From positions 1 to 21,113 of IMG/VR virus record IMGVR_UViG_3300025085_000238: a stretch of DNA of 21,113 nt. One strand, 5' to 3'. Of the stretch, positions 1 through 20,514 are shown in pieces (position 1 is the stretch's first letter; each line of letters starts with the position of its first letter). Under the pieces are notes generated by a model. That model was not told the origin of the DNA, searched no databases, and saw only the letters and a program-made list of their open reading frames with translations. Origin of the DNA: a virus. Both the position numbers and the translations under genes were made by a program.

Positions 1-1679
1 TTATGCGGGCTAGTTGCTCCAATACCTACGTTGTTGCTTCCATCTATACTTAAAGCGTAAGAAGTGTCAGTGTCGTTGTATATGCCAAACTTACCATCGT
101 TATTTATTATACTCCAGTCGTCGTTATTATCTGAGTCTGTTAAGAATATTCTTGGATATGTACTGTTTATAGTTAAATTACCAGTCATTGTACCGCCAGC
201 TTTTGGTAGAGCAGCGTTTGCTGTAGTTGTTGTAGATGTTAACACGCCGTCTCTTGTGGCTATATCAACACCGTCAACTGTACCAGACACAGCCATATCA
301 CCAGTAATATTAACACCGGACGTGGTTGCTTCAATTCTTAATACGTTGTTAGCATAAATATAACTATGACCACCAGAAAAAAACTGAGCAAGATCGTTAG
401 TTCCACCTGCGCTCTTTAAATGAATGTGGCTTGAGTATATGTCTAGACTTCCTGTACCGCTATCTTTTATAATAGAATCACTACCATCGTGGTATATTTG
501 TAGGTCATCGCTATCACCAAAAGCAGCTTTAACATTATCAAGAACATAGATTTGTCTTTTTAGTAAATCTTGCAGCTTAGGTTCTGATCCGTCTATAGCA
601 TGAAAGCCTGGGTTCCAAAAGTACACGTTTTCTCCAGCGTCTCCACTTTCATCATAGTATACATAAGCTCTATGTATTTGAGAAGTAGTATTATTACCCA
701 TTTTAAACTCACTTCCAGTGGCTACTCTTTCCCCTGTTTCTACATCATAAACACCAGATATAGTGTCATTACCTGTAGTTTCGTCGTTATACGGCTGTAT
801 AACCCCTATCATTAAGTACCATCTCTCAGCAATAACAGGACCACCATTGTTTATTGTGTATAGAGGATGTGAAATAAAATATGGGTTTGTATTACTAGAG
901 TTGTTAGATATATTTATAGTTTGCCCAGATGCGGTACCACAACCCAAATATACAGTACCATCTCTAGTGCCAGCTGTACTGCTATCAGGCGTAAAGTCTG
1001 CCATAAAGTAAACATAAGATAAATACCCTATGTTGTTGTTTGCTGGTATAGTTATGTTTTTATTCCAGCCACCATCAGCGTCGTCATCAGTATCATGTAG
1101 TATACATTTCCAAAGTAAAGCTTTATTATTAAATGGATCTTGACCTCGAACTACAGCGTTTTCATCCGCGTCACCATTTCTAACGAAGTCACCACCATAA
1201 AACCCTCCTTGTGTAGAAGATAAAGGCGCGTCGTCCTCAACCCAACCTCTAGACGTAGCGTAGTTTATTGAGCTACCACCTACGTGATGAGCTGCATATA
1301 TGTTTTTAAACGGAACTCCATTTGTACCAACGTCTACAGTGTTTGCAGATGTACCGCTTATAGCTGTTACAATACCTGCAAAGCTAGTGTTTCCACCGAA
1401 AGCCAACGTAGTGTTGCTAGAGCCTAAAGTAAGAACAACACCGCTAGCGCTATCGTCAGCTTTAATACTACCTGACTGCTCAAACAGTATGTCTACATTG
1501 TTAGCGCCATCACCTATATACACGTCAGAGGCTCCGTCTCCCAATAGTATATCTCCTAAAGGATTAGACAAAACAAGATCATTACCGTCCATGTTTATAA
1601 GCCCAGCATTAGTCCCTGAACTGTTTACAAACTGAATGTTGTCTAAGTTTACTATATCTTGTAAAAACTTTAATCCCAT
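1..1679 (-). CDS. Tail fibre / receptor-binding protein, C-terminus outside the window
   Basis: The reading frame starts at the ATG at 1679-1677 and stays open to the left edge (about 559 codons visible, no stop), so it is C-terminally truncated by the window. The start overlaps the stop of the upstream 924-codon gene by one base (TAATG), which suggests coupled translation. The N-terminus reads MGLKFLQDI, close to the MAIKFLQNV start of the 712-residue fibre. Around residue 378 lies the FGDSDDLQIYHDGSDS motif seen in many marine phage fibres; around residue 490 is a KAGGTMTGNL motif typical of tail fibre repeats; the visible end (NNVGIGATSP) resembles the segment that often precedes a C-terminal intramolecular chaperone (Peptidase_S74). 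The middle (about residues 150-350) is rich in Gly, Asn, Asp and aromatics and could be a beta-sandwich carbohydrate-binding module, but I cannot name it. Role inferred: host surface recognition at the tail tip. Confidence 0.85.
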   Translation of the reverse strand, partial: MGLKFLQDIVNLDNIQFVNSSGTNAGLINMDGNDLVLSNPLGDILLGDGASDVYIGDGANNVDILFEQSGSIKADDSASGVVLTLGSSNTTLAFGGNTSFAGIVTAISGTSANTVDVGTNGVPFKNIYAAHHVGGSSINYATSRGWVEDDAPLSSTQGGFYGGDFVRNGDADENAVVRGQDPFNNKALLWKCILHDTDDDADGGWNKNITIPANNNIGYLSYVYFMADFTPDSSTAGTRDGTVYLGCGTASGQTINISNNSSNTNPYFISHPLYTINNGGPVIAERWYLMIGVIQPYNDETTGNDTISGVYDVETGERVATGSEFKMGNNTTSQIHRAYVYYDESGDAGENVYFWNPGFHAIDGSEPKLQDLLKRQIYVLDNVKAAFGDSDDLQIYHDGSDSIIKDSGTGSLDIYSSHIHLKSAGGTNDLAQFFSGGHSYIYANNVLRIEATTSGVNITGDMAVSGTVDGVDIATRDGVLTSTTTTANAALPKAGGTMTGNLTINSTYPRIFLTDSDNNDDWSIINNDGKFGIYNDTDTSYALSIDGSNNVGIGATSPH

Positions 1680-4453
1680 TATATTCTACCGCTTATTCGT
1701 TTCTTGTTAGTATTAAAATTAGATCTTATACTCAACTTACTAAATGTTCCTCTATGAAAGTGTTGAGACTTTAGCACGCCAGGTTTATCCATTAAGCATT
1801 GCAGTGGCATAGCTTTAAAACCTACATCTTCTATATCACTGTTGTCTACGTAATATCCATAAGTTAATTCGTAGCCAGTTTTTTGAGGAGCTACAGTTAG
1901 CTCTTTTGTTTCCCAAGCCCCTTGACTAGAGCTAGTGTGCTCTATGTACTCTAAAAAACCATGGTGTAGTTTTCCTTGAGCTTCTGTACTATTGTTAATT
2001 CCTAACCTATCGTTAGGGTCTGCTATAAAATCCCACCCTGTATGCAAAGTACTAACGCTTCCGTTATCAGTTACTACGCCTTCACTGTGTCTTCCACCAA
2101 GCGCAGAGTTTCTTCTTGGCCTAGCAACTAAAACAGGAAGGCTATTGTTGTCAACAGTATCAGAAGTTCCATCATATCTTGTTGCATTTACTTTTACAGT
2201 AGATCTTAATCTAACCGTAGTATTAGCTGGAACCCACAATCTTTCTGTTAATTGACATGGAAATGAAGAACAAAATATTTCGTTAAAAGACTCACCAGGA
2301 ATATTTAAAAGATGCATAGCTCCTCCGTACTCAAAATACCCATCTTCTCTAAACCCATGCTCTATATAATATACTTTACCAACGTCGGCAGACGTACTCC
2401 TGTATGGTCTATTATTACCGCTGCAGAACATTCTGATAGGTCCATTACCATCATAGTTTGGGGTGTGTGACAATCCATACAGTCTAGACGTAGCATCCCA
2501 ATAGTTAGGAAATATTCTAGAATCGTATTTAACAGTGCTTGTTACACTATCGTTAACATGCATATACCTATACTTATCGCAGTATATTCTTCTCCACGTA
2601 GCGTTGCTTGCGTAACCGTGGTTTATAGCGTAGGCGTTCATGTACTGAATATTCATGTGTTGAACAGTAGTCATATCGTTTTGCCTACCCACGTGAGAGT
2701 AATTAATACCATAATCTTCAGCCATACGTAAATACATATAAGAGTACTCGCAAACTTGTTCGTATGCAGCTCCCCACTCTGTAGAAGTGTAGTTGGCTAC
2801 TGCTACTATATGCCCGTGGCTCTTTACGTGATACTGACTACTCCAATGCCACATTCCTCTACCAGACCCTATTATTATGTTGTTTCTAGAAACTATACCG
2901 TATGGATGCCTAACACATATAGACGGGTAACTATCTCCGTCTCTAGTAGAGTTGGAGCATAGATTGTAAGCTGTGTAGCTGCATCCATCTATGTAATTTT
3001 CCCCTGTTTGACTAACACCGCTAGAAGTGTGTATTGTAGATTCTGTATGGCTTGCTCCTGTTATTTTAGTGTCGTATCTTCCCAGGTAGCCACTTATAGT
3101 AACTCCAGCTCTAAAGTTAGTACCATCACCGGTATTGTATCCTAAACCATTAAACTCTACATATTTTATTTTACACCTCTTTGTCGGCGCGTTGTTCCAT
3201 CCATTACTAGTCCAATACTTTGTGTTAAAGAAAACTCTAGCTGTATCTTGATCGCCTATAGCCACGTCGTTACCACTACTGTCACAAGCCTTTATAACTA
3301 CATCTCTAGTCATTCTAGATACTAAACCACCAATAGACCCATCGTAAAGTATGTCTCTGTCTACGGTTATAGTATTGTTGCTTATGCTAGATATTGTGTA
3401 AACTAAATTATGTCTCCACGCGTTTGTCTCAGAGCCTGAAACATACGTATAACTATTATCACCACAAGCTTCTATGTATATTGTATCTCCAACAGAAAAA
3501 TCAGAAACGTTATTAACGTCTACAGTTCTTAGTCCAGTAGCTCCAGAATAGTTAGCGGTCATAGCGTTAGATAATCTCCTTACGTGAGAATTATCTAAAT
3601 GATATTTTTCAGTTCCTGTTTGATAAACATACTCACCAATTAAACTTGGATCATTATCTACAGAGCTGCCAAAAGTGATTACGTTTGTTCTTTTGTTTAT
3701 GCCTGTAACAGTTAAAACATTTCTATTGTTGCCAAAGCCAAATATTAACTTATATCCAACTCTAAAAACAGCAGCGTCGTCTACTGTTATAGTAGATCCG
3801 TTTACGCTTGATATTATAGGGGGCTTATTACTTTTGTTTGAAAGGGGGTGAACATATTGTCTGATGTATACTCTATTGTTACCAGTATCTACATCGTGAA
3901 CCCAAAAGCATTCGTCTGGAGATAATCTAAAATCTACCTCTCTCAAATACACTGATATAAGATCGTTTGTAGTAAAGTTTGTAGCGCTATCTACGGTTAA
4001 GTATGTAGCCTCGTAATCATGAGCTCCATCTAACTCCGTTTTTAATGTTGGCTCACCGCCTTGAATATCTACACCACACCATTTTCTAGCGTCAGTTTGT
4101 ATACCATGCTGATCAGAGTTTGATCCTGATATTTTTATTTCAGTACCACCAACCATACTAAGAAGAGATCCAGATGTGGCTGTACCTTCTACAAACTCTC
4201 CAGCGGTATTATTACTGTTACTAGTATTCTTAACAGTCATACGACCATGCAGGTGCATCTTACCACCACTAGCAAAATGTAAGTTGCCATCAATAGTAAC
4301 ATCACCAGTTCTAGTTGACTGTATGTTTGTATTGAGAGTTACCTTGTGTCCATGCGCAATAACAACAAGATCATCAGCAGCCGGAACAGATCCGCCTACC
4401 CATGTGCTAGTTGTTGCCCAGTTTCCACTTTGATTACTCGTTATTGTTGCCAT
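1679..4453 (-). CDS. Large fibre/spike protein with G8-like N-terminus and probable beta-helix
   Basis: A 924-residue protein. Residues 10-75 contain NWATTSTWVGGSVP, then DDLVVIAHGHKVTL, then short strands with regularly placed Gly (DVTIDGNLHF, KMHLHG). This arrangement resembles the G8 domain of CEMIP/TMEM2/PKHD1 proteins and of bacterial and phage surface proteins, usually followed by a parallel beta-helix. The central part (about residues 390-640) has His-, Tyr- and Asn-rich short strands (for example ICVRHPYGIVSRNNIII near residue 512) consistent with beta-helix turns. Such proteins can bind or cleave glycans, but I see no proven catalytic residues, so an enzymatic role is only a possibility. 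There is no signal peptide or membrane segment, as expected for a virion protein. The start overlaps the end of the upstream 65-codon gene by 20 bases, and its stop overlaps the next start by one base. Confidence 0.85.
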   Translation of the reverse strand: MATITSNQSGNWATTSTWVGGSVPAADDLVVIAHGHKVTLNTNIQSTRTGDVTIDGNLHFASGGKMHLHGRMTVKNTSNSNNTAGEFVEGTATSGSLLSMVGGTEIKISGSNSDQHGIQTDARKWCGVDIQGGEPTLKTELDGAHDYEATYLTVDSATNFTTNDLISVYLREVDFRLSPDECFWVHDVDTGNNRVYIRQYVHPLSNKSNKPPIISSVNGSTITVDDAAVFRVGYKLIFGFGNNRNVLTVTGINKRTNVITFGSSVDNDPSLIGEYVYQTGTEKYHLDNSHVRRLSNAMTANYSGATGLRTVDVNNVSDFSVGDTIYIEACGDNSYTYVSGSETNAWRHNLVYTISSISNNTITVDRDILYDGSIGGLVSRMTRDVVIKACDSSGNDVAIGDQDTARVFFNTKYWTSNGWNNAPTKRCKIKYVEFNGLGYNTGDGTNFRAGVTISGYLGRYDTKITGASHTESTIHTSSGVSQTGENYIDGCSYTAYNLCSNSTRDGDSYPSICVRHPYGIVSRNNIIIGSGRGMWHWSSQYHVKSHGHIVAVANYTSTEWGAAYEQVCEYSYMYLRMAEDYGINYSHVGRQNDMTTVQHMNIQYMNAYAINHGYASNATWRRIYCDKYRYMHVNDSVTSTVKYDSRIFPNYWDATSRLYGLSHTPNYDGNGPIRMFCSGNNRPYRSTSADVGKVYYIEHGFREDGYFEYGGAMHLLNIPGESFNEIFCSSFPCQLTERLWVPANTTVRLRSTVKVNATRYDGTSDTVDNNSLPVLVARPRRNSALGGRHSEGVVTDNGSVSTLHTGWDFIADPNDRLGINNSTEAQGKLHHGFLEYIEHTSSSQGAWETKELTVAPQKTGYELTYGYYVDNSDIEDVGFKAMPLQCLMDKPGVLKSQHFHRGTFSKLSIRSNFNTNKKRISGRI

Positions 4454-4631
4454 CTATATTATCGTCTTCAAATTGGTTGTTCCACTCGTCTAGCTCTACA
4501 GCTATTTCAAAAGATAGACTATCTTCGTCATCAACAACTGTGGTATCATTGATAACTACATTAACAAGATCCTCGTCCTTAGTTAGAACGAGGTCTCCTG
4601 TTTCTTTGTTATATTCTATCTTTATTATCAT
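4434..4631 (-). CDS. Small acidic protein between fibre genes
   Basis: A 65-residue protein of unknown function. It is strongly acidic, with about a third of residues Asp or Glu and a C-terminal tail rich in Asp, Asn and Glu (FEDDNIDGNNNE). The N-terminus (MIIKIEYNKETGDLVLT) looks like a short beta hairpin. The start lies four bases after the stop of the 712-residue fibre gene and the end overlaps the 924-residue gene by 20 bases, so it sits inside a coupled fibre operon. That tight packing is the main argument that it is real. It could be a fibre assembly chaperone or a small virion adaptor, but nothing in the sequence proves either. Confidence 0.65.
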   Translation of the reverse strand: MIIKIEYNKETGDLVLTKDEDLVNVVINDTTVVDDEDSLSFEIAVELDEWNNQFEDDNIDGNNNE

Positions 4632-6786: not shown

Positions 6787-7128
6787 TTAATTCATATATG
6801 CTTTACCCGTAAAAGACCCTCTAAAATCTAAGGTTAACTGATTTAGAGAGTTGTGGGTTACTTGTCCTATAACCCAACATCCTCCAGAATCAATAACCTG
6901 GACAGCTGGGTATTTATTTAAGTTATGAGTAATTACCCATTGTGCTGAAGCTATGTCTTGATCATGTGTATATGTTTTATCGTGCGCATCAGTGTTAAAA
7001 CTAACTTTACCGTTATCATCAATGACGACAACTTTGGTATCTGTTGATGCTGTTGCACTCTCTAAAAACACATCGTTTCTAAAACGAGATTTCAGGTCTT
7101 GGATATTTTCTCCTTTGTACTTAGGCAT
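6787..7128 (-). CDS. Small fibre-associated protein with a C-terminal beta domain
   Basis: A 113-residue protein of unknown function. Residues 1-30 are polar and charged; residues 31-47 (TKVVVIDDNGKVSFNTD) look like a beta hairpin common at the start of phage fibre modules; residues 60-113 contain WVITHNLNKYPAVQVIDSGG and LTLDFRGSFTGKAYMN. That last stretch is a module I associate with small marine phage proteins and fibre tips, in which a beta-sandwich carries a T-H-N-L motif; a similar stretch forms the C-terminus of the 712-residue fibre. The start overlaps the end of the upstream DUF5675-like gene by 8 bases and the stop lies 12 bases before the fibre start, so it is part of the same transcript. 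Likely a structural or tip-attachment protein. Confidence 0.75.
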   Translation of the reverse strand: MPKYKGENIQDLKSRFRNDVFLESATASTDTKVVVIDDNGKVSFNTDAHDKTYTHDQDIASAQWVITHNLNKYPAVQVIDSGGCWVIGQVTHNSLNQLTLDFRGSFTGKAYMN

Positions 7129-7588
7129 AGTCTATATATGTTATGGTTACTTCTTCTCCTTGATCTATCGCCTTTGCAATAGCTGGATAAATCCTCTTAT
7201 ACGCGTTAACGCTCTTACCAACGAACCCATCACGGAGAATAAGATTGTTTTCCTGACTGTCTCCAACGATAAGACACCCAGCAGTATGCTCGTCAGTGTT
7301 TCCAGTATGAATAAGAATATACTCAAAACCAGGAACATCAGTGACATGCAGCATACCACGGTGTATACCAGGATATTTTTTATCGTATCTAGCATGAAAG
7401 CCTCCTTCTCTTCTTAATTCTATTTTATACGTTCCTGCAGGTATTCTGGTTTCACCCTTTACTTTAAGAACTCTTTGCTCATCTTCTAAGGTATAACATA
7501 AAAAATGTTTGCCTAACTCGTTTACATCAAATAAAAGACCGTGCGTACAATCTACTTGAGAACTTGTTCTTAATACTTCTAATTTCAT
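7121..7588 (-). CDS. DUF5675-like protein, candidate lysis or peptidoglycan-active protein
   Basis: A 155-residue protein. Its motif order resembles the DUF5675 family found in many phages: a YTLEDE segment near residue 32, RIPAGTYKIELR at 48-59, then VPGFEYILIHTGNTDEHTAGCLIVG at about 85-109. His94, Asn97, His101 and the Gly104-Cys105 pair are the obvious candidate functional residues; the IH-x-GN and GC spacing recalls the active site of L,D-transpeptidase-like folds, though catalysis in this family is not something I can state as proven. There is no signal peptide. The preceding genes encode small membrane/coiled-coil proteins, which supports a lysis role. The start overlaps the 71-residue gene by four bases (ATGA). 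A virion-associated structural role is the alternative. Confidence 0.78.
   Translation of the reverse strand: MKLEVLRTSSQVDCTHGLLFDVNELGKHFLCYTLEDEQRVLKVKGETRIPAGTYKIELRREGGFHARYDKKYPGIHRGMLHVTDVPGFEYILIHTGNTDEHTAGCLIVGDSQENNLILRDGFVGKSVNAYKRIYPAIAKAIDQGEEVTITYIDYA
7165..7395 (-). other. Hydrophobic ORF nested in the DUF5675-like gene (unproven)
   Basis: A 76-codon ORF on the same strand, shifted by one base relative to the 155-residue gene. The product would begin with a long hydrophobic stretch (about residues 8-40, enough for one or two membrane segments), have another hydrophobic part near 50-60, and end in a basic tail (TRIRG...LLQRR). This layout looks holin-like. AAGGAGG lies five bases upstream of the ATG, but the same bases encode Arg-Glu-Gly-Gly in the host gene, and the genes here generally lack Shine-Dalgarno sites. 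Hydrophobic shadow frames are common in AT-rich DNA, so I list it only as a possibility. Confidence 0.2.
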
Positions 7589-10458: not shown

Positions 10459-13400
10459 TTATTGAGGAGGTCCGTATGAAACTCCATCATTAGTAACTGG
10501 TGATCCTCCTACAGTAAATCCGCTTGTAACTTCTACACTCACTTGTGAGCCATCAGTTTCTGTTTCTTGAGTATACGGAGGTATTCCGCAGTCTCTACAG
10601 TAGCTTTTAGCAAAGCTAACAAATTTTTCTAAATAATCCGAATTATCTGTAGGAGCTTTTATAGTAACGCATTTTTTCCAACCGCTGTTAGAATCTGAAG
10701 AGAAAGGATCTATAGTTAGACCGCTAGTAGATACTGCTATGTATATAACTCCGCCTAGTCCCCCATTTGCTCTTTTTACAATTGTTCCTAATCCAAAACC
10801 TACTGCGTCTGTAGGATTCCAGTATATAGATCCTGAGTCTTCCCATCTTGCTGCACAGTCATTTGTAGCTGCGCCTATCTGTATAGTACTTTCGTCTGAA
10901 CAGTTGTATACACAAGGTAATCCTTTTCTATTTAAGATTTCTTGTATAATAATCATTTTCCAAGCTTCCATTGTTGAGCAGTCGTCTCCTAAGCCTGTTA
11001 AAAGTTTTGTGTAAAATCTATTACCAGAAGTAGTTATACACTGGTCATTGTATTGTAAAAGGCTATCCATGTTTTGAGGAGTACATCCTGGTATAACGCT
11101 ATCTGTACCATCGTCAACATCTCCGCCTCCTCCACCATCGCCACCACAGCCTCCGTCACAACATGGTCCTGTACATCCTACTACGTCATACTCACATGAG
11201 CCATCATCTAAAGTTGCATTAGGATTATAATTATTTGCTAATGAATCCGTACAACCACTTTGAGGATCAGGTGTACAGCATTCTGAGTTATAAGTACCAT
11301 CAGGGCATAAACATTCTCCCTCACAAGGATCACAAGGATAATTACATGTGCCATCTTCTACCTCAGCATCAGGATTATAATTTTCTGCCTCTGGATCAGT
11401 ACATCCGATTATAATCTCTCCTCCCCCTTCTCCATCTGGAATATCACAAGTATAGTCTATACAAGCAGTGTTACCAAATCCTTCACAATACGTGTTAGGA
11501 TTTGTAGGTAATAATCCAAATGGTGTAGATATAATATCGGAGTAAAATGTAAGAGAATAGCCCCAACATCCATCAGTCAAATTATTAAATGTATACGTTC
11601 CTCCTTGATAATCTGATAAAGAAAGAAAGCCAGCTGGGTCATCTGTTAAAACAGGATTGATTCCAGTGGAACTGCCAAATGGCATTTGACCATTTTCATA
11701 ATAACTAGCGTATGAAGTAATAAATCCAGCGCTATTAGTTTGATTAATTTGAACAACAAACAGAACTCCGTTAGGGTTTACTATGTTAAGATCAGCAGTG
11801 CTAGGAATATTAATTGTTATTGATCCTCCTTCACCGATGTCACAGAATCCTGCAGTTTCATTGTATACACCTGTAGCGGCTGTAGTAGTAGCGTTCATAC
11901 CACCACTATTAGTATTAACCCAATTGCTTAACTCTAAACAATCATCTGGATCAATATCTAGACAAAACTCTTCACATTCTGCTTGTGTTGTATACCCATC
12001 TATAGTACCCTCTATAAACTCGCATTCTCCTGCTGCCGCATTTGAACAAAACCAAGATCCACTTCCTTGTACAGGCGGGCAAGAGCCATCATCAATTGTT
12101 GCTAAAGGATCAAAGTTAGAAGATAAAGGATCTGTACATCCAGGTCTCTCTTCTTCTTCAGGATACTCACAAAGAGTATTGTCAGTTATAACTCCTTCTG
12201 TACCTTCTGGGCAGCAGTAATTACTTGCTGTTGGATCAGTACACTCAAAGGTATTAGTTACTTCATTTGGATCGCAACAAACAGCTCCTCCATTTTCACC
12301 AATAAATGCTCCTCCTTGAAAAAACAAAATGTCACTTTGATACGTGTATTCAGGATTATCAAAACTTCCCCAATTATAATTATAGCTATAAGATATAGGC
12401 TCTGCAGTAGAATTAGTATTAAAGGTACTATTACAATTTGCATATATATATTTTAAAACAGAACCATTTCCAGGAAAACCTTCAGTCCCCCCAAACCATC
12501 TACCAAGAGGCTGCTCTATAGTTTCACTAGTTCCATCTGCATAATTAATTGTAAGATTAACAATAGGATGATTATTAAGTACTCCTGCCTGATTCAGAGA
12601 AGGTGGATTTCCATTACTATCAAATAAAGTATATGTTGCGTTAGCTCCTCCATAGAATGAAAAGTTAATAAAGTTAGCATTATCCCCAAAATAAGGTTGA
12701 TACATATAATGTACTTGTAATGGTCCGTACATATAATTAGGACCCCACCCCTCATTAAATTGCCAATTATCTAAATGAAGCTGAGTATTGTTAGTTTGAT
12801 CGTGGCAAAAAACTTCAGAATAGAAATACTCGCTTAGTAACGTTTGAGGAAAACCTGGATTATTTTGAATGTCAGCATTATAAACATAAAATGGAAATAC
12901 CTCTCCTATAAGAGGGCCCTGAGTGTAAGTAAATTGTCCAGCATTTAAAACTTCTGCAAGATTAGGATTAGTTTCAATAGGGCTTATTCCTACAAGATTT
13001 ACTTGTTTATTGCCGTAGTAATCTTCACCGCATTCTAATTTAATTCCTAAATTTATAACTCCACATCCTTCAGCTGGCTCTTCAGGTTCTGGATAGTTAC
13101 ATGAACCATCATCTATAGTAGCATCAGAATTATAATTAAGCGCATTAGGGTCAGTACATCCTGATTGTCCAACATTTATAGAGCCTGTTAGGCCGAGAAT
13201 ATTGTAACATTGTTCAATTTCATCATCTCCATCTAAAGTGCCGTCATTGTTATATTGCGTAATAACTACATATCTTCCTGCTGCTAGATCTGTAAATGAA
13301 TGAGATTGATTACCATTACCTGTTTGAGTTGCTATTAAAGTAGAATTATTTACTACAATATCTTTTGTACTAGTACCATTTAAGAATGCCGCAAGAACTA

Positions 13401-15018
13401 AATCTATATACTCCTCATCAGTAATATTAAGTTTATATAACTTATGTACAAAAGGTAAAGCCTCAGTGCTATTAAGATTATTTGATAGGACAAACTGAAA
13501 GAATCCATCTTCTCCTAAATTCCATACACCCACACCATCGTTATTCCAAAGATTCCATTCTGCTGCTTCTCCTGCAAAATTTATAATACCATCTGTAAGA
13601 CTAGTTCCTGTTGGAGAACTAGTAGCAATAGTAGGATCTATATAAGATAAAACATCTGGAAATGGTGCAGTAAAGCCGTTTTCTCCTCCTGCTACAAATT
13701 TACCTGTAACTGCATCACAGAATACACAAAGCTCGTCTACATTTGTTAATCCTGCTCCTGAGTCATAGTTTATTGCAGTAGCATCAGTACAAGCATAAGT
13801 AGTATCTGGAATAATATCTTCTTTTTCAGGAATAGTAAAGTTATAACTGTCAGCGCAAAGCCCTTCACCGTCTACCTTCAATGAATACACTCCTGGAAAT
13901 AGATTAGTATAAGTAATAGTATATGGAAGAGCCTGATCAGCTAAATTTACCGACACTGTACTAAAACTTAAATCAGGATTATCTGGAGTTCCAAATAGGG
14001 CATAAGATATAAGTCCTGTAGCTGCCCCGCTTAAACTTGTAACGGTAACTGTTATTGATCCATTTGCAGTATCCTGTGCTGCATCTCCAATATCAGTAAA
14101 AGTATAGACAAGATCATTGTCACATTCATCGCAACATCCTCCATCTATATAATTATCAGAATATTCATTTATTATTGCAGGAGTAAGAGCAACATTAGAG
14201 CAATCCTGTGGAAATGCTAGTCCGTTATCAACACAGGGTAATGTTTCATCTACACAAGATCTTAGCCAATAATTTACTGCAGTAGGGCTTGTACATATTT
14301 TTAAAGGTGTAACTCCTCCTGGAGGTATTATATCTGGTAAGATAAATGCAACTACCTCACCAAATACTACAGGGCCTTCTATTCCAAGAACGTTAGTATC
14401 TGTAACAGAAGAGGTAGTAATTGCTAAAGATTTGTTTTTAGTTCCTCCTTCAAACTTTCCTACAGAGTCTGATGTAGTACCTGAAGGTGTGTATTTTAAA
14501 TTATTTAAAAATTGATTTTGTAAATCATTTGATGCTACGTATGCAAGAGTACCATCAGATACATAATAAAAATCTATCTTACTACTAGTATCTAATTTTT
14601 CAGACGTAGAAGCTGGATATATTACAGTTTCCCTTTGCCCTTTTCCTTCTGGATAAGACAATGTATCTGTAAAACTAAAAGTTTGACTATTTATATCTTT
14701 TGTTTCACTAAAACTAGTAGTTAAAGAATCAAAAGGTACACTGAGTTTTTGTTTGTCTGTAGGAACTGGTAAATTTTTTGTTTCAGTTTTTCCAGACTTA
14801 AATGTTACTGTGTATTTTAAAGCTTTAGGATTAGAAGTTAACCTTGCTACAATTTGAGTGTGTCCTGAGCTAAGTCTAGTCATATTGAACTTTACTTGCT
14901 CTGAGTTTACTGCTAGTGCTACAACAGGATCTGTTAAACTTCCTATTGCTGCAACATATACTGCACCTGTCGAATCTCTAAGACACTTTACACTTAAATA
15001 CGATAGTCCTTTTGCCAT
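10459..15018 (-). CDS. Giant Cys-repeat adhesin-like virion protein
   Basis: A 1519-residue protein, the largest gene here. Four 21-residue repeats of the form GCTDP...NYN...DDGSC lie at residues 620-640, 960-980, 1205-1225 and 1255-1275, with degenerate Cys-bounded copies beginning near residues 242, 410 and 926. Such repeats, with conserved Asp/Asn, are common in secreted flavobacterial proteins and may bind calcium; the Cys pairs could form disulfides outside the cell. Residues about 360-388 (ALPYTITYTNLFPGVYSLKV...GLC) resemble SprB-type repeats of gliding adhesins. Near 1281-1304 is a Cys/Gly/Asp-rich linker (GCTGPCCDGGCGG). The first 220 residues and the last 200 look like separate domains. 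No signal peptide is seen, as expected for a particle component. The start overlaps the Cys-rich 169-residue gene by one base. Role inferred: long host-binding fibre. Confidence 0.82.
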   Translation of the reverse strand: MAKGLSYLSVKCLRDSTGAVYVAAIGSLTDPVVALAVNSEQVKFNMTRLSSGHTQIVARLTSNPKALKYTVTFKSGKTETKNLPVPTDKQKLSVPFDSLTTSFSETKDINSQTFSFTDTLSYPEGKGQRETVIYPASTSEKLDTSSKIDFYYVSDGTLAYVASNDLQNQFLNNLKYTPSGTTSDSVGKFEGGTKNKSLAITTSSVTDTNVLGIEGPVVFGEVVAFILPDIIPPGGVTPLKICTSPTAVNYWLRSCVDETLPCVDNGLAFPQDCSNVALTPAIINEYSDNYIDGGCCDECDNDLVYTFTDIGDAAQDTANGSITVTVTSLSGAATGLISYALFGTPDNPDLSFSTVSVNLADQALPYTITYTNLFPGVYSLKVDGEGLCADSYNFTIPEKEDIIPDTTYACTDATAINYDSGAGLTNVDELCVFCDAVTGKFVAGGENGFTAPFPDVLSYIDPTIATSSPTGTSLTDGIINFAGEAAEWNLWNNDGVGVWNLGEDGFFQFVLSNNLNSTEALPFVHKLYKLNITDEEYIDLVLAAFLNGTSTKDIVVNNSTLIATQTGNGNQSHSFTDLAAGRYVVITQYNNDGTLDGDDEIEQCYNILGLTGSINVGQSGCTDPNALNYNSDATIDDGSCNYPEPEEPAEGCGVINLGIKLECGEDYYGNKQVNLVGISPIETNPNLAEVLNAGQFTYTQGPLIGEVFPFYVYNADIQNNPGFPQTLLSEYFYSEVFCHDQTNNTQLHLDNWQFNEGWGPNYMYGPLQVHYMYQPYFGDNANFINFSFYGGANATYTLFDSNGNPPSLNQAGVLNNHPIVNLTINYADGTSETIEQPLGRWFGGTEGFPGNGSVLKYIYANCNSTFNTNSTAEPISYSYNYNWGSFDNPEYTYQSDILFFQGGAFIGENGGAVCCDPNEVTNTFECTDPTASNYCCPEGTEGVITDNTLCEYPEEEERPGCTDPLSSNFDPLATIDDGSCPPVQGSGSWFCSNAAAGECEFIEGTIDGYTTQAECEEFCLDIDPDDCLELSNWVNTNSGGMNATTTAATGVYNETAGFCDIGEGGSITINIPSTADLNIVNPNGVLFVVQINQTNSAGFITSYASYYENGQMPFGSSTGINPVLTDDPAGFLSLSDYQGGTYTFNNLTDGCWGYSLTFYSDIISTPFGLLPTNPNTYCEGFGNTACIDYTCDIPDGEGGGEIIIGCTDPEAENYNPDAEVEDGTCNYPCDPCEGECLCPDGTYNSECCTPDPQSGCTDSLANNYNPNATLDDGSCEYDVVGCTGPCCDGGCGGDGGGGGDVDDGTDSVIPGCTPQNMDSLLQYNDQCITTSGNRFYTKLLTGLGDDCSTMEAWKMIIIQEILNRKGLPCVYNCSDESTIQIGAATNDCAARWEDSGSIYWNPTDAVGFGLGTIVKRANGGLGGVIYIAVSTSGLTIDPFSSDSNSGWKKCVTIKAPTDNSDYLEKFVSFAKSYCRDCGIPPYTQETETDGSQVSVEVTSGFTVGGSPVTNDGVSYGPPQ
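11194..13161 (-). repeat. Four best GCTDP...DDGSC protein repeats within the giant gene
   Basis: Coding positions of the four 63-base units are 13099-13161, 12079-12141, 11344-11406 and 11194-11256. Each encodes Gly-Cys-Thr-Asp, then a variable stretch with Asn-Tyr/Phe-Asn/Asp, then Asp/Glu-Asp-Gly-Ser/Thr-Cys. The spacing between copies is uneven (about 340, 245 and 50 residues), so they behave as separators between larger domains and not as a simple tandem array. Confidence 0.8.
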
Positions 15019-19068: not shown

Positions 19069-19095
19069 TTAAGAAGCTACACACTGAATGTCCAA
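19064..19095 (-). promoter_or_regulatory. Candidate Bacteroidota-type promoter
   Basis: On the minus strand TTG (19095-19093) is followed after 21 bases by TAAATTTG (19071-19064), matching the Bacteroidota sigma-factor consensus TTG...TAnnTTTG at a suitable spacing. The -7 box overlaps the capsid gene stop codon and points into the largest gap of the window, so it would drive the 269-residue gene and those after it. Such a degenerate motif occurs by chance in AT-rich DNA, so this is tentative. Confidence 0.3.
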
Positions 19096-20514
19096 CGAAG
19101 TATCAAATCTACGTAAGCAGATACCCGCTGTCTTCAACATGTGTACGCTCGCACCGTCAACGTCTGATGCTCTTGCATCTGAGCCAGAGAAACCTCTAGG
19201 AACTACAGAGCCAGCAACACACCAACGCATCATCTCACGACCTTTCTTAGAGATCATTGTAAGATTAGCTTGTCCGTCATAGTTAGACTGGTCAACAAAT
19301 ACCATACGGTAAGACTCTAAAGAGTAACCAGTAACAGGGTGCTTTCCACGAGCTTGTGCAACTGGACCGTGATCAAATAATGGTAATTTTACCACATTGA
19401 TTACATGACCATCTACGTGCTCGTATGTAGTGAAGTAACCAGTCAATCCTAAGTTACGTCCGCTACCTGTGATGAATCTGTTCTCACCACCTACTTTGAA
19501 GGAGTTACCTGCAAAGTGTGATTTAAGAGCTTCATCAAACTCTCTTGCGCCACCAGTACCAGTATACAAAGTAATTTGCTTCTGGTTAGCGTCTGTCATT
19601 TGGTAGAATAAATCACCAATGATGTTTTTCAACTTAGACTCAGTCATAGTTGAGTAAGTATCAGTGTTTACGATTTGCTCGAATAAACCAGGACCTACAA
19701 TAACAGGCTGTCCATTCTCATCTTTCATAAACGTGTTACCGTTTGCATCATAAGTTTTTTGTCCGTACCAGTAGTACATTTCACACTCTTCTTTGAAGTC
19801 AAGCATGTGTTGGTACTCTTCGTAATCCATCCAAAGTTTTGTAGAACCACCACCTTTAGTAGGTAAAGAGAATTCTGCAACGAAATCTTTTGCATGTCCT
19901 GACATGTGGTAAGATTTACGTACTGTTGTGATTTTGTTACGAACTTTTCCTGGAGCTTGCCAGTTAGAAGCGTTACCTCTAGAGAAGTCAACACCTACTG
20001 GTGCATACAATTGGGCCCAAAGATCACCTGCAGTAAAACCTGAAGTTAATACTGTAGCTGCTGCTGGGTTTACTAATTGTAATGTATACTCCCAACCAGA
20101 ACCGCCTACATAAGGCTTAGGCTCTTGCATGATACGTGCTAGCTCACCTTTTGAGTTTACTAATACATAAGGAAATATAAATCGTTTGTCAGGGAATACT
20201 AACGTGAAAGTTGATCCTCCCTGTCCTAAATTTGCTCCTGCATTTGTCACAGCCACTGGACGTGTTCTCAATTTGTGGGTAGCCACACGATATTCATACT
20301 CTAAACGGTCGATTGATTGAACATTACCAGCTCCTTCTGTTAAGAAAGATAGTGGGAATCTTTTATCATCTTTACCCGCTAGATGCGTGATAATCGGAGA
20401 AAGTTCAGTTGGCTTAGACAATAATGCATTTGCCAGACTGTTCATGTCTGTCATTTGCGAATCATTATAAAACGTCTTTTGAACGCTAATGTTCGTTCCA
20501 TTCAATTGTGGCAT
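19069..20514 (-). CDS. Major capsid protein
   Basis: A 481-residue protein. The N-terminus (NISVQKTFYNDSQMTDMNSLANALLSKPTELSPIITHLAG) precedes a segment with FPLSFLTEGAGNVQSIDRLEYEYRVAT, and then DKRFIFPYVLVNSKGE, a long helical part near KLWMDYEEYQHMLDFKEECEMYYWYG, GPGLFEQIVNTDTYSTMTESKLKNIIGDLF, and a C-terminal domain with KLPLFDHGPVAQARGKHPVTGYSLESYRMVFVD. Size, position right after a scaffold-like gene, and this organisation fit an HK97-fold capsid protein; the pattern is the one I associate with crAss-like and related Bacteroidota phages (memory, not searched). No membrane segment or signal peptide. Base use is slightly less AT-rich and more even than its neighbours, as often seen for highly expressed capsid genes. 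The start is preceded by an A/T-only leader. Confidence 0.85.
   Translation of the reverse strand: MPQLNGTNISVQKTFYNDSQMTDMNSLANALLSKPTELSPIITHLAGKDDKRFPLSFLTEGAGNVQSIDRLEYEYRVATHKLRTRPVAVTNAGANLGQGGSTFTLVFPDKRFIFPYVLVNSKGELARIMQEPKPYVGGSGWEYTLQLVNPAAATVLTSGFTAGDLWAQLYAPVGVDFSRGNASNWQAPGKVRNKITTVRKSYHMSGHAKDFVAEFSLPTKGGGSTKLWMDYEEYQHMLDFKEECEMYYWYGQKTYDANGNTFMKDENGQPVIVGPGLFEQIVNTDTYSTMTESKLKNIIGDLFYQMTDANQKQITLYTGTGGAREFDEALKSHFAGNSFKVGGENRFITGSGRNLGLTGYFTTYEHVDGHVINVVKLPLFDHGPVAQARGKHPVTGYSLESYRMVFVDQSNYDGQANLTMISKKGREMMRWCVAGSVVPRGFSGSDARASDVDGASVHMLKTAGICLRRFDTSLDIQCVAS

Follow-up and report, generated by a model that had tools for sequence, protein, structure and literature searches.

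The minus-strand gene at positions 1679..4453 of the window, i.e., of the whole 21,113-base viral record analyzed here, encodes a protein of 924 residues that is probably a virion spike and one half of a two-protein fiber. As we picture it, a right-handed beta-helix would open with G8-type turns and continue into three small rider-like modules, which is the plan of TMEM2; after these would come the main helix and a region rich in strands, with a basic tag at the end of the chain. This C-terminal tag would most likely dock on the 'IGDG' domain with which the product of the next gene begins, and the long face of the helix would bind, and possibly cleave or modify, a polysaccharide on the surface of a marine host that is probably a member of the Bacteroidota. 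The fold and the domain order are predicted by a structural model; the virion location, the docking, the glycan ligand, catalysis and the host are what we infer. Phage spikes built on a beta-helix are a known kind, of which this one, with its TMEM2-like plan, is a variant; what is surprising is its strict pairing with the neighboring gene, its tag and its wide spread. The original prediction had foreseen neither the partner gene nor the rider-like modules and the tag.

Every open reading frame of the window with a family match lies on the minus strand. The phage is crAss-like, judging from its genes: it has the crAss-type major capsid protein by which Crassvirales are recognized (19069..20514, minus strand; Pfam PF23898, E 3.3e-82), as well as a match to the crAss tail ring protein (PF25710, E 9.8e-7). 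Fiber-like genes flank the spike gene on both sides, and the upstream one, P0002, matches several tail-fiber PHROGs. A small acidic open reading frame of 65 residues (4434..4631, minus strand) overlaps the start of the spike gene. It has a tblastn match upstream of the spike in every near-family locus examined and, among the loci of the distant group, in L089-L091; a role as assembly helper is possible. Elsewhere in the window, a 1519-residue protein (10459-15018, minus strand) carries repeated motifs of the type GCTDPxAxNYxxxAxxDDGSC, which we take to be familiar from Bacteroidota surface proteins; an NCBIfam scan of this protein gave no match.

The original prediction gave no strand for the gene at 1679-4453. 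The open reading frame is real and its limits are right: on the minus strand it runs from an ATG at 4453 to a stop at 1681-1679, and a plus-strand reading of the same interval contains 36 stops. It is also full length and intact, starting and ending alike, in all 24 relatives retrieved with a four-sequence profile.

The size of the family emerged from successive scans of IMG/VR. The spike protein alone retrieved 3 loci, and the four-sequence profile 24. Its N-terminal 108 residues added two near members (L039 and L043) and four distant N-terminal matches. A distant member, L057, retrieved 29 loci, including its own and four partial ones; a second distant query gave 3 new contigs, and a third only its own locus. 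The resulting alignment of 45 sequences consists of 20 near members, with 48-70% identity to the spike of the window, and 25 distant members, with 24-32%. Among 50,697 records of phage isolates, a collection that may lack entries very close to the window, there was no full-length relative at E 1e-3 or 0.01. The spike itself matches no PHROG family and no NCBIfam family; among the 45 members, three PHROG families appear, in scattered members. A search of the sequences of solved structures gave nothing credible with the spike (best E 0.29), nor with the four-sequence profile.

A structural model built from the 45-sequence alignment (pLDDT 84.9, pTM 0.87) predicts with good confidence that the spike is a right-handed parallel beta-helix beginning with G8-like turns; a prediction from only 4 sequences was useless (pLDDT 33.1). 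Strands of this model begin at residue 3 and continue to about 141. An insertion then occupies the chain as far as about 384; the main helix ends near 735, and strand-rich sequence follows until about 888. In window positions, with approximate borders and all on the minus strand, these are residues 1-141 (4031-4453) for the initial helix turns, 142-384 (3302..4030) for the insertion, 385-735 (2249..3301) for the main parallel beta-helix, and 736-890 (1784..2248) for the strand-rich C-terminal part, which we read as a putative beta-sandwich.

The comparison with solved structures is consistent with this assignment. The 50 structures listed by VIA-align match the model with Z scores of 12.8-17.0, and they are mostly glycan-active beta-helices; further down the list come others such as phi29 gp12 and a DHS dehydratase. 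An alginate epimerase/lyase (8JAZ) scores 17.0, the CBA120 tailspike TSP2 16.6, and AlgE4 16.4; K1 lyase (7W1C) follows at 15.2, and the Sf6 tailspike and TMEM2 at 15.1 each. In Foldseek, phage depolymerases lead and the first match is the depolymerase of Klebsiella phage P560 (7VUL; E 3.3e-7), with low TM-scores of 0.06-0.18 on the query among the 50 matches listed. In BFVD, one protein of 896 residues (A0A516M121) matches over its full length (E 8.3e-47, TM 0.70). Model and comparison therefore both give the spike the right-handed beta-helix body by which phage tailspike depolymerases are recognized. The parallel beta-helix that had been proposed from the sequence to follow the G8 region is in this way borne out, and no other fold was predicted.

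The TMEM2 ectodomain (8C6I) gives the longest alignment among the 50 matches listed, with 401 aligned residues at 14% identity, the next longest having 318. It places residues 6-729 of the model on residues 117-903 of the chain, although several other proteins have a higher Z score. The length of this alignment suggests that TMEM2 may also have counterparts of the spike's early turns and of some of its insertion. As in CEMIP and TMEM2, the G8 turns of the model are continuous with a right-handed parallel beta-helix (Z 15.1 to 8C6I). The proposal of a CEMIP/TMEM2-type arrangement within a phage fiber locus is supported by this alignment, and by neighboring genes that match tail-fiber PHROGs.

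A G8-like domain had been claimed for the first 75 residues of the protein, and profile searches do find one: Pfam G8 (PF10162) matches residues 17-71 (4241..4405, minus strand), inside the first turns of the beta-helix. The match is barely above threshold (E 7.6e-5, 23.0 bits against a gathering cut-off of 22.9) and spans positions 1-54 of the 124 in the model, i.e., less than the whole of it. No other Pfam family was found in the spike. Within the family, G8 is detected at E<=0.01 in 26 of the 45 members, with 26.1 bits in L021; in the 8 matching proteins among 10 family and outgroup proteins scanned, coverage extends at most to positions 1-83 of the Pfam model. According to the description of the TMEM2 crystal structure, G8 is there part of a continuous beta-helix (PMC10206443). 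By this analogy, we prefer to see in the G8 region of the spike the opening turns of the helix rather than an independent binding domain, and we would accordingly not keep the part of the original prediction that treated it as a separate domain.

Similar starts occur outside the family. The N-terminus of a fiber of Curvibacter phage PCA1 (UZZ64504.1) is 51% identical over 41 residues (E 0.02; 1.5e-6 pairwise), and a second search of a phage collection returned it again (E 0.004), with only the first ~40 residues recurring. Three further contigs, L055, L056 and L058, have a G8-like N-terminus with 29-39% identity over 88-196 residues. Beyond this start, no credible similarity to the spike was found in any of these four proteins, which, unlike the spike family, come without an IGDG partner (0/4). 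L056 has short repeats that look like those of a classic beta-helix. Because the G8-like start is found on proteins that are otherwise dissimilar, it seems to be an independent module common to several spikes. A search of the literature found nothing that links the G8 domain with phage tail fibers; the papers retrieved for G8 and phage were, by their titles, on animal CEMIP/TMEM2. As a side observation, a DUF5675 gene is found near the G8-start spike in both the window (7121-7588, minus strand; PF18925, E 2.5e-27) and phage PCA1 (L030:3852-4289, where the gene carries the same annotation).

The G8 match and the 401-residue alignment to TMEM2 raise the question of whether the spike is an enzyme or binder of the hyaluronan type, in the strict sense of CEMIP/TMEM2. 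We regard this as very improbable. Sequence scans with Pfam revealed no lectin-like (POMGNT1-type) or other CEMIP/TMEM2 accessory domain in the spike, nor a lectin-like one among the 7 families matched by the 45 members; several other beta-helix enzymes score equally well or better in the structure comparison; and the hyaluronan-depolymerizing activity of TMEM2 is itself described as disputed (PMC10206443).

The insertion after the first turns appears to consist of three related modules. For the blocks R1 (residues 128-212), R2 (210-286) and R3 (290-384), whose borders are approximate, hhalign gives probabilities of 94.7 for R1/R3 and 94.1 for R2/R3, and of only 17.6 for R1/R2 directly; R1 and R2 each match R3, and are weakly matched as repeats of one another. 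The K1-lyase_Rider family (PF24149) is matched by 5 of the 45 members at E<=0.01 (best E 0.0012), and in two members it is the third module that matches, at 19.6 and 16 bits, below the cut-off of 27. The 45-sequence profile likewise found two solved structures over rider-like stretches, 9n71 (E 5.8e-4) and 7vul (E 0.67). The rider of K1 lyase is described as inserted in rung 2 of the helix, where it helps the cohesion of the trimer and takes part in polysaccharide binding (PMC8822698).

From the company its fold keeps, the rider-like modules, the fiber locus and a faster-changing helix body, we consider it likely that the spike binds a glycan of the host surface, which it perhaps also cleaves. 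Divergence within the family peaks in the main helix: over 68 non-redundant pairs, mean distances are 0.69-0.77 for the main helix and the C-terminal part, compared with 0.55-0.57 for the G8 turns and the riders. From residue 383 up to the point where the main helix ends, Arg383, Lys430, Arg523 and Tyr572 are the only residues that at least 24 of the 25 distant members retain. Ser645 is less strongly kept in both groups; otherwise these four are the polar residues retained before the tail.

These residues bear on a second explanation, namely that the spike is an active polysaccharide depolymerase (a lyase, hydrolase or epimerase), and hence a true tailspike enzyme. The nearest solved folds among the matches listed belong for the most part to polysaccharide lyases, epimerases and depolymerases, and a set of conserved basic residues plus a tyrosine would suit a lyase, given that catalysis in K1 lyase is described as involving Tyr, His and Arg (PMC8822698). 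However, the fold by itself proves no function, and the 45-member alignment shows neither an acidic residue nor a histidine within the main helix that is kept family-wide. The original prediction had pointed to an acidic pair or a conserved histidine as the feature to look for in homologues, and to an HPYG segment near residue 515. The segment is indeed there, at residues 516-519 (2897..2908, minus strand), and its histidine is conserved in all 20 near members and in only 5 of the 25 distant ones; this rules out His516 as a family-wide catalytic residue. A catalytic set common to the 45-member family is not evident. Altogether, we see an active depolymerase as a real possibility, if a slightly doubtful one.

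The reading of the spike as one half of a two-protein fiber derives from the adjacent gene. This partner fiber gene (1..1679, minus strand) runs off the end of the contig and matches a tail-fiber family (phrog_8745) at residues 378-469. It starts with a conserved domain of ~90 residues, 'IGDGxxxVDIxFEQ', which in the window comprises the first 95 residues (1395-1679) and has no match in phage isolates at 1e-3. A gene with this domain lies directly downstream of the spike in 50 of 50 loci, several of them near-identical, with a junction that ranges from a 4-base overlap to a 15-base gap. The pairing also holds in reverse. When the IGDG domain alone was used as query, a spike was found upstream in 78 of the best 80 of 115 relatives (profile E no higher than 2.1e-13), with 13 of these 78 truncated at a contig end. 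Among the best 80 of 115, 35 loci were already known from the spike searches, and 43 of the 45 new contigs have the spike; in the two that lack it, the matches begin 5 and 53 bases from the contig end. The spike is half of a fixed gene pair. Partners are ~200 to 2,489 residues long, some being cut by the end of the stretch; tail-fiber families are matched by two of three other partners scanned, one of which has an S74 chaperone domain, and the partner of L025 has no PHROG match. In two carriers, similar methyltransferase-like genes lie downstream of the partner fiber (L003:12655-13221 and L004:13648-14208); that of L004 matches Methyltransf_25 at E 8.7e-5, below the cut-off, and that of L003 was judged by eye.

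The spike itself ends in a basic tag, KKRISGRI, at residues 917-924 (1682..1705, minus strand). The pattern R(I/L/V)(S/G)G ends all 82 full-length spikes paired with a partner, and in 80 of them it is followed by R or TR; the commonest forms are KRISGRI (30), KRIGGTRL (9) and KRISGRL (8). Such an ending occurs in 40 of 709 distinct open reading frames of the loci examined, and all 40 start like the spike. A C-terminal tag on one protein and a dedicated N-terminal domain on the next suggest a joint between the two. In a mirror-tree test, the tail was not singled out as the contact with the partner (rho 0.63, against 0.60-0.69 elsewhere), so docking through the tag is kept conditional.

The same observations could be explained by a non-enzymatic adhesin, or by a proximal scaffold rod that bears the partner fiber, with G8 on the virion side and the tag as the joint, analogous to the proximal half-fiber of T4. 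The fixed gene order and pairing, the tag in 82 of 82 spikes, the tail-fiber and S74 families matched by the partner at some loci, and the lack of a catalytic set seen across the family would all agree with such a role. The divergence of the main helix is nonetheless unlike that of a pure scaffold, and the closest folds are mostly enzymes; this explanation is therefore distinctly doubtful to us. We favor instead a spike that both forms a fiber with its partner and contacts the host polysaccharide through its helix.

This pair appears, by the marker genes of the records that carry it, to occur in both crAss-like and T4-like phages; the evidence consists of sheath, capsid and portal matches. One record, G021, carries a spike (L025) that is 66% identical to that of the window, and matches tail sheath, major head, portal, baseplate wedge and terminase families; we read it as a T4-like phage. 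The spikes of two crAss-like carriers, G018 and G023, are only 51% identical to that of the window, and their capsids are 50% identical. The similarity of the spikes thus does not seem to follow the type of capsid, which fits an exchange of the spike-partner unit. Sharing of fibers between distant phages is described for Alteromonas phages (PMC10579305). Among 46 of 55 carrier records, a contractile-tail sheath is found in 7, and the phrog_138 capsid of G021 in 5, including one record of 372 kb that is also in the sheath set. The crAss capsid was not seen in 21 of 24 and in 31 of 31 other carriers; since these records may be fragments, and the latter scan had no positive at all, we do not take its absence as proof. 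In G034, G036, G041, G048 and G053, the sheath matches contain internal stops, and may be neighboring or split sheath genes. The phrog_6681 terminase had been considered as a mark of an unrelated lineage and was dropped, as a contig near-identical to the window has it too.

The host is probably a member of the Bacteroidota, because crAss-like phages with known hosts are described as infecting this phylum (PMC8042965), and because of a type IX secretion sorting domain at the end of a 713-residue phage protein in another carrier (L003, IMGVR_UViG_3300025869_000013, 1934-4075). That protein, encoded two genes upstream of the spike, matches TIGR04183 (E 3e-11) and PF18962 (E 9.1e-11), which suggests its export by a Bacteroidota host. 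Maricaulis was rejected as host. The sole match in a genome falls on L029 (NZMJ01000013.1), a contig of 64.6 kb that carries a phage terminase and comes from a 'Maricaulis' MAG with terminase matches on three contigs, and on these matches L029 is phage sequence binned with the MAG.

In our judgment, the receptor-binding proteins that marine crAss-like phages use are poorly known. A spike and a fiber that move together across virion types would be a portable recognition unit, made up of two proteins amenable to expression and assay; the tag and the IGDG domain are a concrete candidate for a fiber joint, and could aid the annotation of host-recognition genes in metagenomes. In its boldest and rather unlikely form, the proposal would be that of a widespread, undescribed two-protein recognition machine of uncultivated aquatic phages, made of a TMEM2-type beta-helix enzyme with a near-universal R-x-G-G-R tag and an IGDG docking domain, and exchanged whole among crAss-like, T4-like and jumbo phages. 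If so, these spikes would be uncomplicated relatives of animal hyaluronan depolymerases that are themselves disputed, and a system for locating the active site of those animal proteins. The plan shared with TMEM2/CEMIP already offers phage relatives in which to seek it.

Among known systems, the alginate C-5 epimerases/lyase (8JAZ, AlgE4, AlgE6, AlgG) match the helix body with some of the highest scores (Z 15.2-17.0), tied with CBA120 TSP2. We know of no G8 start or rider insertion in these enzymes. K1 lyase (7W1C) resembles the predicted spike in having a beta-helix with an early insertion, a rider in the lyase and rider-like in the spike, and is described as having a C-terminal beta-sandwich (PMC8822698). 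The spike differs from K1 lyase and the P560 depolymerase in having three rider-like modules rather than one, and in beginning with a G8 cap, whereas those two begin with a separate N-terminal particle-binding domain. Unlike TMEM2/CEMIP2 (8C6I), with which it has 14% identity, the spike belongs to a phage, ends in a tag and is encoded beside a partner gene, and its inserts look rider-like; the active site of TMEM2 is reported as one that could not be assigned in the crystal structure (PMC10206443). The two proteins have in common a G8-type start within a continuous right-handed beta-helix, an insertion after the first turns (in TMEM2, domains described as inserted after three turns), and a strand-rich part after the helix, which in TMEM2 is the beta-sandwich 'domain X' (PMC10206443).
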